Source: Trueperaceae bacterium
GTDB taxonomy: Bacteria; Deinococcota; Deinococci; Deinococcales; Trueperaceae
Length of the DNA stretch: 64,000 nucleotides
Direction of reading: 5' to 3'
Assembly (NCBI GenBank): GCA_011389865.1
Contig: JAABTL010000002.1
Span: 62,001 to 126,000, forward strand
The position numbers were made by a program, and so were the translations under genes. The notes below the pieces were generated by a model. It did no database searches. It had not been told where the DNA came from and saw only the letters and a program-made list of their open reading frames with translations. Of this stretch, positions 8,281 to 17,967 are shown one piece after another; positions within the stretch are counted from its first letter, which is position 1, and every line of letters starts with the position of its first letter.

Positions 8281-9390
<1,110 letters not shown>

Positions 9391-9424: not shown

Positions 9425-9994
9425 ATGAACGCACGACTCGACGGATACGAGCAGGTCCCCCACTTCGGCGCCGAGCGCGTCACGCAGTTCGACCGCGCCG
9501 GCGAGGCGCTGGAGAGCGGCCACGATTACCTCGCGCTGATCGACACCGACCGCGGCGAGATGCTCGTCGACCTGGAGCAGGACCGCACCCCGGTGACGGT
9601 CAACAACTTCGTCTTCCTCGCGCTGCACCGCTACTTCGACGGCATCGTCTTCCACCGCGTGCTCGAGGACTTCATGGCCCAGACCGGCGACCCGACCGGC
9701 ACGGGCCGCGGCGGTCCCGGCTACCGCTTCGCCGACGAGTTCCATCCTGATCTGCACCACGACGCGCCCGGCGTGCTGTCGATGGCGAACGCCGGCCCCG
9801 GCACCAACGGCTCGCAGTTCTTCATCACCTTCGGGGCCACGCCCTGGCTCGACGGCAAGCACGCGGTGTTCGGCCGCGTCGTCGACGGCGTCGAGGTCCT
9901 CGACGCCCTCACCCGCGTCGACCCGCAGCGCCCCGGCGGCGCGAAGCCGGACGCGATGCGACAGGTCACCATCTGGCGGCGCCCGGTCGGCTGA
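9425..9994 (+). CDS. Cytoplasmic cyclophilin-type peptidyl-prolyl isomerase
   Basis: 189 residues without signal or membrane segment: a complete single-domain cyclophilin. Active-site blocks are [38 protein letters not shown] and TPWLDGKHAVFGRV. It is very close in sequence to the catalytic domain of the upstream gene, which points to a tandem duplication followed by loss or gain of the membrane anchor. Start ATG 9425 follows AGGAGG by 6 bases, and the 34-base gap suggests co-transcription. Together the pair would serve proline isomerisation on both sides of the cytoplasmic membrane. Confidence 0.93.
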   Translation: MNARLDGYEQVPHFGAERVTQFDRAGEALESGHDYLALIDTDRGEMLVDLEQDRTPVTVNNFVFLALHRYFDGIVFHRVLEDFMAQTGDPTGTGRGGPGYRFADEFHPDLHHDAPGVLSMANAGPGTNGSQFFITFGATPWLDGKHAVFGRVVDGVEVLDALTRVDPQRPGGAKPDAMRQVTIWRRPVG

Positions 9995-12142: not shown

Positions 12143-12925
12143 ATGCACCTCGTGGCGGTCGTCGGCGACGACCAGGACCTCGCCCACCGCTTGCGCGGCT
12201 TCCAGGACGCCGGGCAACGCTTCCTCCTCCACCCCATCGCACCCCGGCCGTTGCCGGCGCTGACCGACGCCCTGCGCACCCTCGACTTCGCCGGCGCCGT
12301 CGTGCTCGACGCCCGCAGCCAACGCGCTGCGGGCGCAGCCGCCGAGCGCGGCTCGCTCGACGTCCGCGAGCTGCAGGCCGCGGACGCCCTGGTGATCACC
12401 CCCGCCGGCGTCGTGACCGATCTCCACCTCGGCCGCGCCATCGGGGCGGCGCTGCGGCAGCGCCTGTGGGACCCGCGTGGGGCGCGCGCGGTCGTCCAGG
12501 GGGCCGACCTCGCCGCTCGGGCCGCGGCGCGTGAGCTCGCCAGCCTGGGCGTGGCGCACCTGTGCGTGATCGCCCCCGACCGGCCGGAGGCTGAGCGCGT
12601 CACCGGTCTGCTGGCGGCCGCGACGTCGACGGCGGCCGTGGCCGAGGCGGAGCCCGCGGCGCAAGCGATGCTGGAGCGGGCCGACCTCGTCGTTCGCTCG
12701 AGCGAGGCCGCGACGCTGCCCGCTCACGTGCTCGGTCCCCACCTGGCGCTCGTCGACCTGGTGCCGGGGGCACTGTCGGCCTGGCGGCGGCGCGGCCTCG
12801 AGGTCGGCGCGTTGACGATCGGCGCCCTCGACGTCGAGGCCCACCGGCTGCAGCTGGCCCTGACCTCGATCCTCGGTCCCGGTGTCGCGCTCGAACCGCT
12901 GATGGCCCTCGTGCACGACGCTTGA
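12143..12925 (+). CDS. Divergent shikimate-dehydrogenase-like Rossmann protein
   Basis: 260 residues, Ala-rich. The layout recalls AroE: an N-terminal substrate-like domain, then a Rossmann half beginning ARAVVQGADLAARAAARELA, where a true enzyme has VLGAGGAARA; the C-terminal helix (LQLALTSILGPGVALEPL) also fits. The expected substrate Lys/Asp pair (NVTxPxK) is not evident and the glycine loop is degraded, so this may be a non-catalytic or repurposed relative. Start ATG 12143 is supported by the -10 box 7 bases upstream. It precedes the envelope cluster by 32 bases and may share its transcript. Family call is tentative. Confidence 0.5.
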   Translation: MHLVAVVGDDQDLAHRLRGFQDAGQRFLLHPIAPRPLPALTDALRTLDFAGAVVLDARSQRAAGAAAERGSLDVRELQAADALVITPAGVVTDLHLGRAIGAALRQRLWDPRGARAVVQGADLAARAAARELASLGVAHLCVIAPDRPEAERVTGLLAAATSTAAVAEAEPAAQAMLERADLVVRSSEAATLPAHVLGPHLALVDLVPGALSAWRRRGLEVGALTIGALDVEAHRLQLALTSILGPGVALEPLMALVHDA

Positions 12926-12957: not shown

Positions 12958-14631
12958 GTGCGTGTGTTCCGTCGCGTCTCACCACGCACCCTCCGCGTGC
13001 TCCCGCTCGTTCTCGCCGCCGTCCTCTACGGTTCGGCCTGGTCGCACGGTCACGTCGGGTCCGCCGACCCAGCCGGGTCGGGTGGCACGGGCGCGGAGAT
13101 CGCGCTGTGGGACGCCAGGATCGAGGTCACCGAGGGCGCCGTGACCGTCACGTTCGGCGCGACGACGCTGGTGTACGTGGACGGTCTCGGCTGGCTCGCC
13201 GACTTCGTCGCGCCGCCGCCGCGCGTCGTCGACGGCGTCGCGTGGGTGGTTCCCGAGGTCGCTGCGGCCCTCGGTCTCGTGCCCGAGCAGAGCGGCACCC
13301 CGCCGCCGCCCGAGGAGGCCCCACCGTCGGTCGACGGTGGGCGGGCCCGGCTCGTCGGCGTGCGCATCTCGGGCGAGGTGGACATGCGCGTGGTGCTCGA
13401 CCTCGAGGGCATCGACGTCGACGCGCTGCGAGGCGTCGGGACCGTGGGGCGCGTCGAACCCGGCGGCGCTCTCCGGCTCGAGCTGCCGCGGGTCACGCTC
13501 CCCGCTGCGCTTCCCGCGACCGCCGGCATCATCGACCTCGCCTGGCACGACGGTGGCCCCGGGCCCTCGCTGGCGCTGACCGGCGCCGGTTTCGCTTACG
13601 ACGTGTTCGCGTTGGCCGAACCGACACGCCTCGTCATCGACGTGCGTCCCGACCGCGGCGGGGTGCCCGCCACGGGTGAACGCGTCGAGGCCCTCGCCCC
13701 GGGCGTGGTCTACCGGACGTTCCGGGCCCAGGGCAGCGGTGGCCCGAGCCGCGTCCACGTGCTGGAGGTGGCCCCGGGCGCGGGCCAGTGGCGCGTGGTC
13801 GGTGCGCCCGGCGAGGCCCAACCGACACTCCGTTGGGCCGACGGCGGCTTCGTCGCGATCAACGGCGGCTACTTCGAGCCGGCGACGCGCTCCGCGATCG
13901 GGCTGCTCGTGGTCGACGGCGTGTGGCTCTCGCCGCCGTCGCGCGGGAGGGCCGTCATCGGCTTCGGTCCCGACGGCGTGGTCATCGATCGTGCCCAGGT
14001 GAGGACGGGCCTGTGGTTCGACGATCGGCTGGCGCTGTCGCTCGATCACGAGCTCGCGGAACGGGTCTCGGTGCATGCGATCTCCGGCGCGTGGGCGGGA
14101 TCAGGGCGCATGGGAACGCTGACGGTCGACGCCGACGGTCGGGTCACCGGCAACCGCGTGGGTCCGGTGCGCGTCCCCGACGACGGCCGCGTGATCGTCT
14201 ACCCGCCCGAGCTGCGCAGCGCCGCCCTCGCCGAGCCGGGCACCCGGGTCCGGACGGCGCTCCGGTTGCAGCCGGCGGCGCTGGAACGGGTCTCCCACGC
14301 CGTCGAGGCCGGTCCGCTGCTGGTGCAGGGCGGGCGCGACGCCTTCGCGCCCGAGCTCGAGGCGTTCGCCCGCGGCGTGCGCATCCTCGACGACGTCACG
14401 CAGCAGGCCGCGATCGGCGTCACCGCGGATGGCACCGTGCTGCTGGTGGCGGCGGAGGCCATGATCGCCGCCGACCTCGTCCCGCTGATGCTCGATCTCG
14501 GCGCCATCGACGCGATGCGCCTCGATTCCGGCGGCAGCACGACGCTGGTCGCCGACGGTCGGGTGCTGAACCGGCTCACCGAGCGCGCCGTGGCCAACGC
14601 CATCGTCTGGCTGCCCGAGGCGCCGCGGTGA
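12958..14631 (+). CDS. Secreted AMIN-like plus NAGPA (phosphodiester glycosidase) protein
   Basis: 557 residues. N-terminal signal peptide (RTLRVLPLVLAAVLYGSAWS), then a copper-amine-oxidase-N-like stretch (about 45-110), an AMIN-like beta domain (about 130-250, VRISGEVDMRVVLDLEG to TRLVIDVRP), and a NAGPA/DUF2233 catalytic domain (about 265-557) with FVAINGGYFEP, AGPLLVQGG and the signature MRLDSGGSTTLV. Bacterial NAGPA domains cleave or trim GlcNAc-1-phosphodiester-linked surface glycans; AMIN domains bind cell-wall material. A periplasmic or cell-wall role is therefore likely. GTG 12958 is chosen (GGGGGTCAGG upstream); a TTG at 12922 is possible but overlaps the previous stop. It is followed by a 4-base GTGA overlap. 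Confidence 0.82.
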   Translation: MRVFRRVSPRTLRVLPLVLAAVLYGSAWSHGHVGSADPAGSGGTGAEIALWDARIEVTEGAVTVTFGATTLVYVDGLGWLADFVAPPPRVVDGVAWVVPEVAAALGLVPEQSGTPPPPEEAPPSVDGGRARLVGVRISGEVDMRVVLDLEGIDVDALRGVGTVGRVEPGGALRLELPRVTLPAALPATAGIIDLAWHDGGPGPSLALTGAGFAYDVFALAEPTRLVIDVRPDRGGVPATGERVEALAPGVVYRTFRAQGSGGPSRVHVLEVAPGAGQWRVVGAPGEAQPTLRWADGGFVAINGGYFEPATRSAIGLLVVDGVWLSPPSRGRAVIGFGPDGVVIDRAQVRTGLWFDDRLALSLDHELAERVSVHAISGAWAGSGRMGTLTVDADGRVTGNRVGPVRVPDDGRVIVYPPELRSAALAEPGTRVRTALRLQPAALERVSHAVEAGPLLVQGGRDAFAPELEAFARGVRILDDVTQQAAIGVTADGTVLLVAAEAMIAADLVPLMLDLGAIDAMRLDSGGSTTLVADGRVLNRLTERAVANAIVWLPEAPR

Positions 14632-16028
14632 ACGGGCGCGCCTGGCTGGTCGTGGTGCTGGTGGCGTCGTTGCACGTCGTTCACGGCCAGAACGCCGGAC
14701 GCCTGGCGGAGGTCGAGGTCGGCTTCCGCGGCGCGCCGGTGGCCGACGCGTGGAACCCACTGCGCGTCACCGTGCGCGACGTCGGCAGCGGGCGCCTCAC
14801 GCTCGTCGCCGATCAGGGCAACCTGCGCGACGGCGAGATCCCCTGGACGATGGTCGTGCCGGTCAGCGGTGGTGCCGGCGTGCGGGTGCTGGAGGTCGAC
14901 GTCTTCCTGCCGGCGTGGCGGTCGCTGGTGTGGTCGCTCGAGGCGGGTGGCAGCATCGTCGCCAGCGGGGCGCTGCCCCGGGAGGCGGCCGACCGGCGCC
15001 GGCTGGACCTGGTGGTGAGCGCCGGGCCCGGGGTGGTCGCCGAGCGCCTCGCGGGCCGCGTCGTCGACGTCCCGGCGGCGCTGCTGCCGGCGCGCGCGGC
15101 CGCCTACGACGGGGTCCGCTCGTTGTGGATCGACGGTAGCGGCGGGATGCCGGCGACGGCGGCGATCACGGCCGCCGCCGCGGCAGGCGCCGTGGTGGTG
15201 CTGTCCGACGAGGCGCTGCGCGACCCGGTCGTCGTCGAGCTCGTCGGCGAAGGGGCGGCGTGGGTCCCGATCGCGGCCGGCGGGTGGTGGCTCGGTGCGC
15301 CGCCCGACGGCGCCCAGCTCGAGTCGGCCCGCGTCGACCTCGGCGCCTACCTGGCCGCGTTCGCCGCGGCCGGCGGGGTGGTGGCCCCGCGCACCGTCTC
15401 CGTCGCCGCCGTGATGGTCACCGCGTCCGCCTACGTCCTGCTGGTCATGCTCGCATGGCGCGTCGGCGGCGCCCCCGGCCTGCTGACGTGGTCGGTGCTG
15501 GTGCTCGGCGCCTCGCTGCTCGCTTGGGGCGCGCCGCGCCCCTCGTCGCCGACGCTGATCGAGAGCCGGGCGCTGCACGTGGGCGTCGGCGACCTCGCGT
15601 GGCGCACCGAGGTCCACGACCTGCTGACGCTGCCGGCGGGCGTGGTCGAGGTGGCCCGGGTCGCGCGGCCGGCGACGACGACGGCCGGCGAGCAGCGGCT
15701 CGGCACGCCGCCGGGCACCACGCTGACGCTGCCGCGTTGGCGCGGGGCGTCCCTCGTCGAGTCGCCGCGCGCCGCGCCAGCGCTGCTCGCGCTCGGCGCG
15801 GACGGCCAGCCGGTCGCCGTGGGTGGTCGGGTCCTGAGCGACGTGCGGGTCGTCGGCGGCCCGGCCTGGCGCGAGGTGGCACCCGGCCGGGAGCTGGGAC
15901 CGGCGAGCGAGGCGGCGGCGCTGGGCGGCGACGCGGCCGCCTTCGAGGCGTTGCTGCCCCCCGGTAGCGCGTGGGCGAGGGACGGTGCCGACTGGCACGT
16001 CGCCCTGGCGCCGGAGGTTCGCTGGTGA
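14628..16028 (+). CDS. Exported membrane protein of unknown function
   Basis: 466 residues, start GTG overlapping the previous stop (GTGA). Signal peptide WLVVVLVASLHVVHG, then a beta-rich domain (about 25-110: VEVGFRGAPVADAWNPLRV), an alpha/beta domain (about 120-240, with IDGSGGMPATAAITAAAA) that recalls a degenerate glutamine-amidotransferase-like fold, two membrane segments around 265-305, and a C-terminal beta domain (about 310-466). This architecture resembles accessory proteins found beside MoxR/DUF58 modules, but no MoxR or DUF58 gene is present in the window. Function unknown; neighbours suggest envelope biogenesis. Confidence 0.7.
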   Translation: MNGRAWLVVVLVASLHVVHGQNAGRLAEVEVGFRGAPVADAWNPLRVTVRDVGSGRLTLVADQGNLRDGEIPWTMVVPVSGGAGVRVLEVDVFLPAWRSLVWSLEAGGSIVASGALPREAADRRRLDLVVSAGPGVVAERLAGRVVDVPAALLPARAAAYDGVRSLWIDGSGGMPATAAITAAAAAGAVVVLSDEALRDPVVVELVGEGAAWVPIAAGGWWLGAPPDGAQLESARVDLGAYLAAFAAAGGVVAPRTVSVAAVMVTASAYVLLVMLAWRVGGAPGLLTWSVLVLGASLLAWGAPRPSSPTLIESRALHVGVGDLAWRTEVHDLLTLPAGVVEVARVARPATTTAGEQRLGTPPGTTLTLPRWRGASLVESPRAAPALLALGADGQPVAVGGRVLSDVRVVGGPAWREVAPGRELGPASEAAALGGDAAAFEALLPPGSAWARDGADWHVALAPEVRW

Positions 16029-16654
16029 CGATGCGGCTTCCGAACGTCCTCGAGGAGGGCCTGGAGCGCCTGCGCTCCGGCGATCTCCCCCAGTTCGGGC
16101 TGCTGGTGCTCGCGCTGCTGGCGGCGACCCTGGTGGTGACCTGGCCCGCCCGCCCGGGGCTCCCGAACGAGTCGTGGTACACGGTCTCGCAGACCCGGTC
16201 GGTGCTGGTCGCACTGCTCGCGCTCGGCTACGGGATGGGGCTGCCGCTGGCCTCGCCGCTCCAGGCGGCGGGCACCGTGGTGGCGGTGTCGCTGCTCACG
16301 ATCACGATGCTGCCGCTGGAGTTGGTCGCTCATGCGGGCAGCGCGCCCGCGACGCCCGCGTGGTGGGCCTGGCTGGCGACGCCGGTCGCGACCGCGGGGT
16401 ACCTCGCGCTGGGCGGCCTGTTGGGCATCGTCGTCCGGCGGCTGCGCCTCACCGCGCTGGCGCCCCTGCTGGCGCCCGCCGTCCTCGTCGGCGCCGTCGC
16501 GATCGACGTCCGGCTCGGCGTGACGCTGTTGAACCCGCTGACCGCGGCCCTCCAGGTCGCGCCCGGTCATCTCGCCTTCCACGGCGCGGCAGCGTTCCTC
16601 GGGGCCGCGGCGCTCGCCTGGGCGGCGCGGCGCCGCGGGGAGGGCGACGCATGA
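16025..16654 (+). CDS. Multi-pass membrane protein, unknown
   Basis: 209 residues with about five predicted membrane helices (FGLLVLALLAATLVVTW; SVLVALLALGYGMGLPLA; AAGTVVAVSLLTITMLPLEL; a segment around YLALGGLLGIVV; LAPLLAPAVLVGAVAI) and a final hydrophobic stretch near the C-terminus. The start is GTG 16025 in a GTGA overlap; ATG 16031 is an alternative two codons later. No family is recognised. The tight overlaps on both sides imply that it is made together with, and may form a complex with, its neighbours. Confidence 0.7.
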   Translation: MTMRLPNVLEEGLERLRSGDLPQFGLLVLALLAATLVVTWPARPGLPNESWYTVSQTRSVLVALLALGYGMGLPLASPLQAAGTVVAVSLLTITMLPLELVAHAGSAPATPAWWAWLATPVATAGYLALGGLLGIVVRRLRLTALAPLLAPAVLVGAVAIDVRLGVTLLNPLTAALQVAPGHLAFHGAAAFLGAAALAWAARRRGEGDA

Positions 16655-17967
16655 CGCGCCCGGTGCACCTCGACGTCCTGCGCCGCTGGCGCCTCGAGGG
16701 GATGGGGCTGCGCGCGGGCATCGGCGCTCTCCTCGCCTCGCTGATCGCCTTCGCGCTGGGCGCTCCGAACGCATGGCATCTGGGCGCGATCGTGCTCGGC
16801 GCCGCGGCCGCGGCCGCGTGGCCGCTGCGGAGTGACGAGCGCCGCGCCCTGGGGTGGGTCGGCGAGCGCGTCGGCTTGGCGTACGAGACGGCGTGGGAGC
16901 TGTCGCGCGCCCAGCCGGCGGCCGACGAGCGCGCCACCGCGCTGCGATCGTCGGTCGAGGTGCAGGGCCGGCTGTCGGTGCGCGACCTGCGACCGCCGCC
17001 GGCCGCCGCGTGGTGGCTCCCGCTGGCGACGGTCGCCTTCGGCCTGTGGCTGTGGGCGGCCTGGGCTGGGGTCGGCGGCGCGGCGCTGCCGACGGGACCG
17101 ACGCCCGGGCAGCCCCCCACGACGACGAGCTCCCCGGCGCCCGCCGACGACGCACGTGTGGACGACGCGACGCTCGACGAACCGCCCGCGCCCGACGTGC
17201 CCGACGACGCGACCCCGGCCCGCAGCGACGACGGCTCCGGCGAGGCCACGAGCGCCGGGAGCGGGTCCCCGACCGAGGGCGGCGCCCCGGCGGAGCGCGA
17301 CGTGCTGGACCGCTTCCTGGATCGCTTGCGCGAGCGGCCGCCGGAGGAGGAGGCCGCCCGGGCGCGCCAGGCGGCCGCCGCCGGGGCGGAAGACGAGGAC
17401 GAGGGAGAGGACGAGCCGGCCACGCCGGGCGGCGACGCGATGCGCAGCGGCGAGGAGCCCGAGGAGGGCGACCCGGAGAGCGACCGCCGGGCCGGCGGCG
17501 AGGGCGACGAGGAGCGGGCCGGCGAGACCGAAGAGGGTGAGGGCGATGGGGCGACGGACGACGAGAGCGACGGTGAGCCTGGTGACGGGGGCAGCCCCGA
17601 GGGCGAGGGGCCGGAGGCGCCGGGCGACCCGGGGAGCGGGCAGGACGAGCAGGCCGGCGGCGCCGGCGAACAGGTCGGGGTCGACGAGGGCGGCGAAGAC
17701 GGGGACGCAGGCATCGGGGTGAGCGCACCCGGTGACGCGGGTCCCGCGGCCGATCCGGCGGCCGGCGACCCCGAACCGCTGCCGTCCCTGCTCGGACCGG
17801 GCGAGGAGCTGCCGATCGGCGGCGTGCAGCTGCCCGGCGTCGGGCCCGACGGGGACTTCCCGTCGGGGCCGGCCGGTACGGCCTTCAGGCGCGGGGTCGA
17901 GGAGGCGCTCAACGAGGGCGACCTCCCCGTCGCCTACCAGGAGGTCATCCGCAACTACTTCCGCTAG
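16651..17967 (+). CDS. Membrane protein with long acidic disordered linker, unknown
   Basis: 438 residues. Two N-terminal membrane helices (about 22-60), a cytosolic stretch to 110, a third helix (about 120-142), then some 230 residues of Asp/Glu/Gly/Pro/Ala low complexity. The last 60 residues are ordered and end AYQEVIRNYFR. A C-terminal YR..V..YF motif after a long linker is a feature of proteins accompanying MoxR-type ATPase clusters and may be a docking tag; that is inference. The start ATG overlaps the previous stop (ATGA). It is the last gene of the run and faces yigZ tail to tail. Confidence 0.7.
   Translation: MTRPVHLDVLRRWRLEGMGLRAGIGALLASLIAFALGAPNAWHLGAIVLGAAAAAAWPLRSDERRALGWVGERVGLAYETAWELSRAQPAADERATALRSSVEVQGRLSVRDLRPPPAAAWWLPLATVAFGLWLWAAWAGVGGAALPTGPTPGQPPTTTSSPAPADDARVDDATLDEPPAPDVPDDATPARSDDGSGEATSAGSGSPTEGGAPAERDVLDRFLDRLRERPPEEEAARARQAAAAGAEDEDEGEDEPATPGGDAMRSGEEPEEGDPESDRRAGGEGDEERAGETEEGEGDGATDDESDGEPGDGGSPEGEGPEAPGDPGSGQDEQAGGAGEQVGVDEGGEDGDAGIGVSAPGDAGPAADPAAGDPEPLPSLLGPGEELPIGGVQLPGVGPDGDFPSGPAGTAFRRGVEEALNEGDLPVAYQEVIRNYFR

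Follow-up and report, generated by a model that had tools for sequence, protein, structure and literature searches.

The window analysed here is a 64,000 bp stretch (G000:C22:62001-126000) of the 3.05 Mb, 97% complete genome of a Trueperaceae bacterium. It includes an operon of four genes, designated g1 to g4, that is preceded by a further gene, g0. The features are as follows.

12143..12925, + strand: g0, a 260 aa shikimate-dehydrogenase-like NAD(P)-fold protein (profile search, synteny)
12958..14631, + strand: g1, a secreted NAGPA-domain (phosphodiester glycosidase family) protein (PF09992, PDB, motif)
14628..16028, + strand: g2, a protein with a signal peptide, a beta domain, a mixed alpha/beta domain, a predicted transmembrane (TM) hairpin and a C-terminal beta domain (AlphaFold2, hydropathy)
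16025..16654, + strand: g3, a six-TM protein with an amphipathic N-terminal helix and an ABC-2-permease-like predicted fold (AlphaFold2, Foldseek)
16651..17967, + strand: g4, a protein with three TM stretches, a long disordered acidic region and a conserved C-terminal tail
17779..17964, + strand: the C-terminal tail of g4, 62 aa, ending LPVAYQEVIRNYFR and common to MoxR-linked proteins (alignments, hhalign)

The GC content at the third codon position is 0.91-0.95 in each of the four frames g1 to g4, which are therefore coding. The ORF of g1 opens at TTG 12922, and the start at GTG 12958 yields a signal peptide. Adjacent genes are joined by 4-base stop/start overlaps, GTGA at 14628-14631 (g1-g2), GTGA at 16025-16028 (g2-g3) and ATGA at 16651-16654 (g3-g4), as described in the first-pass annotation; an alternative g3 start, ATG 16031, would leave g2 and g3 without an overlap. 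Genes for two peptidyl-prolyl-isomerase-like proteins lie next to each other at 8281-9390 and 9425-9994; the product of the first has a long acidic region at its N-terminus.

The g0 profile (17 relatives) matched 5-ketofructose reductase and AroE entries in the PDB with E-values of 9e-11 to 1e-3, and no Pfam family was matched. The usual catalytic lysine region of shikimate dehydrogenase seems to be missing. The gene precedes g1 family-wide and possibly encodes an enzyme that has been repurposed or has lost its activity and that the whole family has retained upstream of the operon. The g1 product matched PF09992 with an E-value of 6.5e-25 (88.7 bits against a cut-off of 25) and Synechocystis Slr0280 (PDB 5h3k) with an E-value of 8.6e-11, and its D-x-G-G/S-S motif is kept in relatives. 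Of the earlier label 'AMIN-like/NAGPA', the NAGPA part thus stands, while the AMIN match falls below the cut-off (E-value 0.072). The likeness to Slr0280 and other members of the NAGPA family is that of the domain carried by g1, whereas linkage of NAGPA with g2-g4 is so far confined to this phylum.

No Pfam, NCBIfam or PHROG model matched g2, g3 or g4, for which only scattered weak matches were obtained, none of them usable, and PADLOC returned no anti-phage defence match for any of g1-g4. Likewise, the g2 and g3 profiles had no match among PDB sequences. The AlphaFold2 model of g2 (pLDDT 88.8) consists of a signal helix, a beta domain, a mixed alpha/beta domain, a long hydrophobic helical region and a C-terminal beta domain. 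The hydrophobic region is drawn as one continuous helix in the model. However, two hydrophobic stretches are seen in the hydropathy profile at about aa 257-302 with a conserved positive charge between them, and a TM hairpin is therefore favoured for this segment. A Foldseek search with g2 gave generic Ig-like domain matches only (TMq at most 0.17), from which no function was drawn, and the 'amidotransferase-like' part previously ascribed to g2 was confirmed by no family model. Assignment of g2 to GldG/ABC_transp_aux (PF09822) was rejected, as none of 21 members matched that Pfam family. An LbR_Ice_bind match in one member probably reflects the C-terminal repeats of the Truepera radiovictrix protein (L046:8806-10464). 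The C-terminus of this protein has an expanded repeat, SSRRPSGRDRSVSG.., that the other species lack. The AlphaFold2 model of g3 (pLDDT 94) includes six TM helices and an amphipathic start. Its top PDB folds in Foldseek were those of the ABC-2-type proteins NosY and Wzm, with probabilities of 0.94-0.98 and TMq of 0.45-0.56 but weak E-values (0.2-0.7). An ABC-2-permease-like fold is hence suggestive only, and no Pfam or NCBIfam family supported g3 as an ABC-2 permease.

The g4 product has TM-like stretches at aa 18-36, 41-59 and 123-141, and the TM part is followed by 297 residues, including 77 D/E and 17 K/R, and then by a strongly conserved end. All g4 homologues share a positive N-terminus, three TM-like stretches (two of which pass the threshold in the Thermaceae, family f4), a loop motif of the type G-L-x-Y-x-T/S-A-L-E, a long disordered stretch and the conserved tail. 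The tail, of the form ..YQEIIRNYFR, recurs together with the 3-TM layout in nearly all sampled Deinococcota and was detected with a tail profile in 98 of 111 Deinococcota genomes. In a broader scan with the tail pattern, which is narrow and may have missed homologues in other phyla, 128 stretches were matched and 23 were confirmed, all in Deinococcota. By the positive-inside rule, the tail is predicted to be periplasmic. A relationship to DUF4175-type membrane proteins was rejected, as g4 matched no such model in Pfam or NCBIfam.

Gene calling on the neighbourhoods of relatives showed that the order g0-g1-g2-g3-g4 is kept across the Trueperaceae (f1), including T. radiovictrix (G017), usually flanked by thrS on the opposite strand on one side and by a UPF0029 gene and cysS on the other. 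Even relatives with only about 25-30% identity keep the order, and most relatives also have the 4-base g2-g3 overlap; the module therefore goes beyond chance. On the question raised by the first-pass annotation of whether the four genes stay together in other genomes, the neighbourhood comparison thus favours the module. Of 41 relatives, 24 had a match to g2, and 22 of the 24 belong to the same family. When 111 Deinococcota genomes were searched with the g2 profile, 35 same-family genomes and all four genomes of a second Deinococcales family (f5) were matched, and no match was obtained elsewhere in the phylum at an E-value of 1e-3. In many relatives, a signal-peptide lipoprotein-like protein of ~200 aa that is absent from the window is encoded between g4 and the UPF0029 gene (e.g. 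L032:6151-6753, L033:5833-6417 and L042:6486-7103; no Pfam match in the one tested).

The association of NAGPA with the other genes is looser. NAGPA is the immediate upstream neighbour of g4 in 25 Trueperaceae genomes and in 12 Thermaceae genomes, the latter from four genera and without g2 and g3. NAGPA genes of families f3 and f4 are often unlinked to g4. In the four f5 genomes, g2-g3-g4 occur alone in different surroundings, and one Trueperaceae genome (G007) includes g0-g2-g3-g4 but has no NAGPA gene anywhere. Hence, g2-g3-g4 is the core of the form found in the Trueperaceae and f5, and NAGPA is a separable partner. This bears on the suggestion that the operon builds or trims a phosphodiester-linked surface glycan, which is left unsupported because the trio persists without NAGPA. 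In its more specific form, g2-g4 would serve as the envelope anchor or regulator of NAGPA, which would cleave a sugar-1-phosphodiester of a surface polymer. Such a complex is possible though unlikely: g1 is a true NAGPA family member with the D-x-G-G/S-S motif, the gene stays directly upstream of g4 even in Thermaceae that lack g2 and g3, and every component has a predicted secreted or membrane location. However, besides the genomes in which the trio has no adjoining NAGPA and those in which NAGPA is unlinked to g4, the operon includes no glycosyltransferase or polymer gene.

A different set of partners is suggested by the relatives of g4. In the sister genome of Meiothermus silvanus (G052), genes for MoxR, DUF58, two BatA-VWA proteins, NAGPA and g4 follow one another in that order on the + strand with gaps of 134, 76, 10, 39 and 9 bp. 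In M. silvanus (G051), whose proteins were assigned with Pfam, the arrangement is identical except for a small inverted gene ahead of g4. The link of NAGPA-g4 to MoxR within one operon is thus seen in two genomes of one genus. In addition, five Trueperaceae genomes include six MoxR-DUF58-giant-VWA loci (L199, L200, L249, L250, L251 and L253), and at each of these the gene directly upstream of MoxR encodes a protein with the g4-like 3-TM layout and a tail ending ..RYF... Among the 1059 distinct proteins encoded in the regions read, 47 had the tail pattern, namely g4 homologues, the six MoxR-upstream proteins and four unrelated proteins. A profile-profile comparison (hhalign) aligned the tail of g4 with that of the six proteins at a probability of 93% and an E-value of 2.9e-7, covering 28 residues only, and a 6-sequence profile was required, as the probability against a single MoxR-upstream protein was only 5%. 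At two other MoxR-DUF58 loci, the upstream protein ends in a degenerate tail (L128) or has no tail (L252). Accordingly, g4 is one of a family of 3-TM proteins that share a C-terminal tail and are elsewhere encoded beside MoxR-DUF58-VWA genes. The likeness to MoxR/DUF58 accessory proteins noted at first reading is borne out by the cluster in M. silvanus and its sister genome and by the six MoxR-upstream tail proteins.

The Trueperaceae MoxR-DUF58-giant-VWA loci appear to be an unannotated mox-like maturation cluster. The mox/mxa modules that serve PQQ alcohol dehydrogenases include the ATPase MxaR, MxaS, MxaA and the VWA proteins MxaC/MxaL (PMC3615186). Two of the six Trueperaceae loci, L249 and L200, were tested for PQQ dehydrogenase genes and lie near them, with the tail protein encoded immediately upstream of MoxR in both, whereas no PQQ enzyme is encoded in or next to the window operon. 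PF01061 ABC-2 permeases were found in L249, L200 and L251 (three loci tested), and an ABC ATPase gene is present in most loci. A second alternative is an ABC-2-type unit for export or mechanotransmission, made up of g2-g3 and comparable to GldF-GldG or NosDFY, with its ABC ATPase encoded elsewhere and g4 as a regulator. This would accord with the NosY and Wzm folds retrieved for g3 and with the true ABC-2 permeases at these three loci, but g3 itself matched neither the Pfam ABC-2 family nor any PDB sequence, the structural E-values are weak, and no genome seen has an ATPase gene in the operon. We consider it unlikely.

No MoxR, DUF58 or VWA gene is present in the window operon, or beside g2-g4 in the Trueperaceae and f5 genomes seen. 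The earlier statement that no ATPase or VWA protein is encoded holds for the operon but is incomplete, as these genes are present elsewhere in the genome. One strong MoxR-type AAA_3 match and one DUF58 gene lie side by side on contig C7, a lone BatA-VWA gene on C44 and a GATase1-like/VWA gene on C11, and g4 is the only tail protein. The genome thus has a full set of Bat/mox-type parts, scattered over four sites. In the DUF58 protein, the opening part of a metal-ion adhesion site is conserved as DVSPS, with the DxSxS motif intact. A Ser/Thr kinase gene (L109:5220-6158) directly follows the MoxR-DUF58 pair on C7 and is followed by sugar-type ABC permeases. Trueperaceae MoxR-DUF58 pairs often lie beside a kinase and simple-sugar-type ABC permeases, and these may be the real partners of the pair. 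MoxR was found in all 41 genomes searched, and the tail was absent from all four genomes of family f2, in which DUF58 matches are at most weak. Presence and absence was set aside as a test of linkage to MoxR, as the absence in f2 is one evolutionary event and hence weak evidence.

The explanation that best fits these data, with a probability of about 55%, is that a dispersed MoxR-DUF58(-VWA) maturation system has its membrane and periplasmic accessory half encoded in this operon and its ATPase half elsewhere in the genome. Given that the defining ATPase is missing from the operon, it is best filed as an operon that works with MoxR-DUF58 and not as a MoxR module in its own right. NorQD acts on a membrane enzyme: its MoxR ring drives an adaptor of the VWA type, and the MIDAS site of the adaptor binds acidic residues of the target (PMC9976466, PMC13036017). 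The VWA domain of a Borrelia BatA-type protein faces the periplasm (PMC5700661). By analogy, a cytosolic MoxR ring with DUF58 as the adaptor would act on cytosolic loops of g3 and g4. The motion would pass through the six-helix g3 and the helices of g4 to the periplasmic parts, i.e. the beta domains of g2 and the acidic tether and tail of g4, as the predicted topology would place most of g2 and the acidic tail of g4 in the periplasm. The latter prediction would make direct contact of the tail with cytosolic MoxR impossible. The periplasmic parts, possibly with a BatA-VWA protein, would then hold an envelope client and remodel it or bring about its maturation, after the manner of NorQD or the Mxa maturation factors; the client may be the NAGPA enzyme itself. 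We infer the physical contact with MoxR, the direction of force, the mechanism and the client.

In a stronger version, which is improbable, MoxR-DUF58 would replace an ABC ATPase in a trans-envelope machine and drive the permease-fold g3, moving the periplasmic g2 domains and the tethered g4 tail, which would engage an envelope client. That the four genes merely share an operon and have unrelated housekeeping functions is very improbable: the parts are separable, with g1 missing in G007 and g2-g3 absent from f3 and f4 at profile sensitivity, but g2-g3-g4 occur together in two families with different surroundings and NAGPA-g4 likewise in two families.

A dispersed MoxR-DUF58 system of this kind would be closest to the MoxR-DUF58-BatA/VWA (Bat/aerotolerance-type) clusters, as M. 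silvanus and its sister genome end such a cluster with NAGPA and g4 homologues, and the MoxR-DUF58 pair and the lone BatA-VWA gene are also present in the genome of the window. In contrast to these clusters, the accessory genes of the Trueperaceae lie apart from the ATPase, and g2 and g3 are added to them. NorQ-NorD, RavA-ViaA and CbbQ-CbbO provide the mechanistic template of a MoxR ring and a VWA adaptor with a MIDAS acting on a client, but include no multi-protein periplasmic membrane partner comparable to g2-g4.

MoxR-DUF58 pairs are common in bacteria, yet for the most part it is obscure which clients they serve and how they reach the envelope. Annotation by gene neighbourhood overlooks MoxR systems with scattered parts. 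A phylum-wide partner with a short conserved tail, present in the cultured species T. radiovictrix and M. silvanus, is a specific experimental handle.
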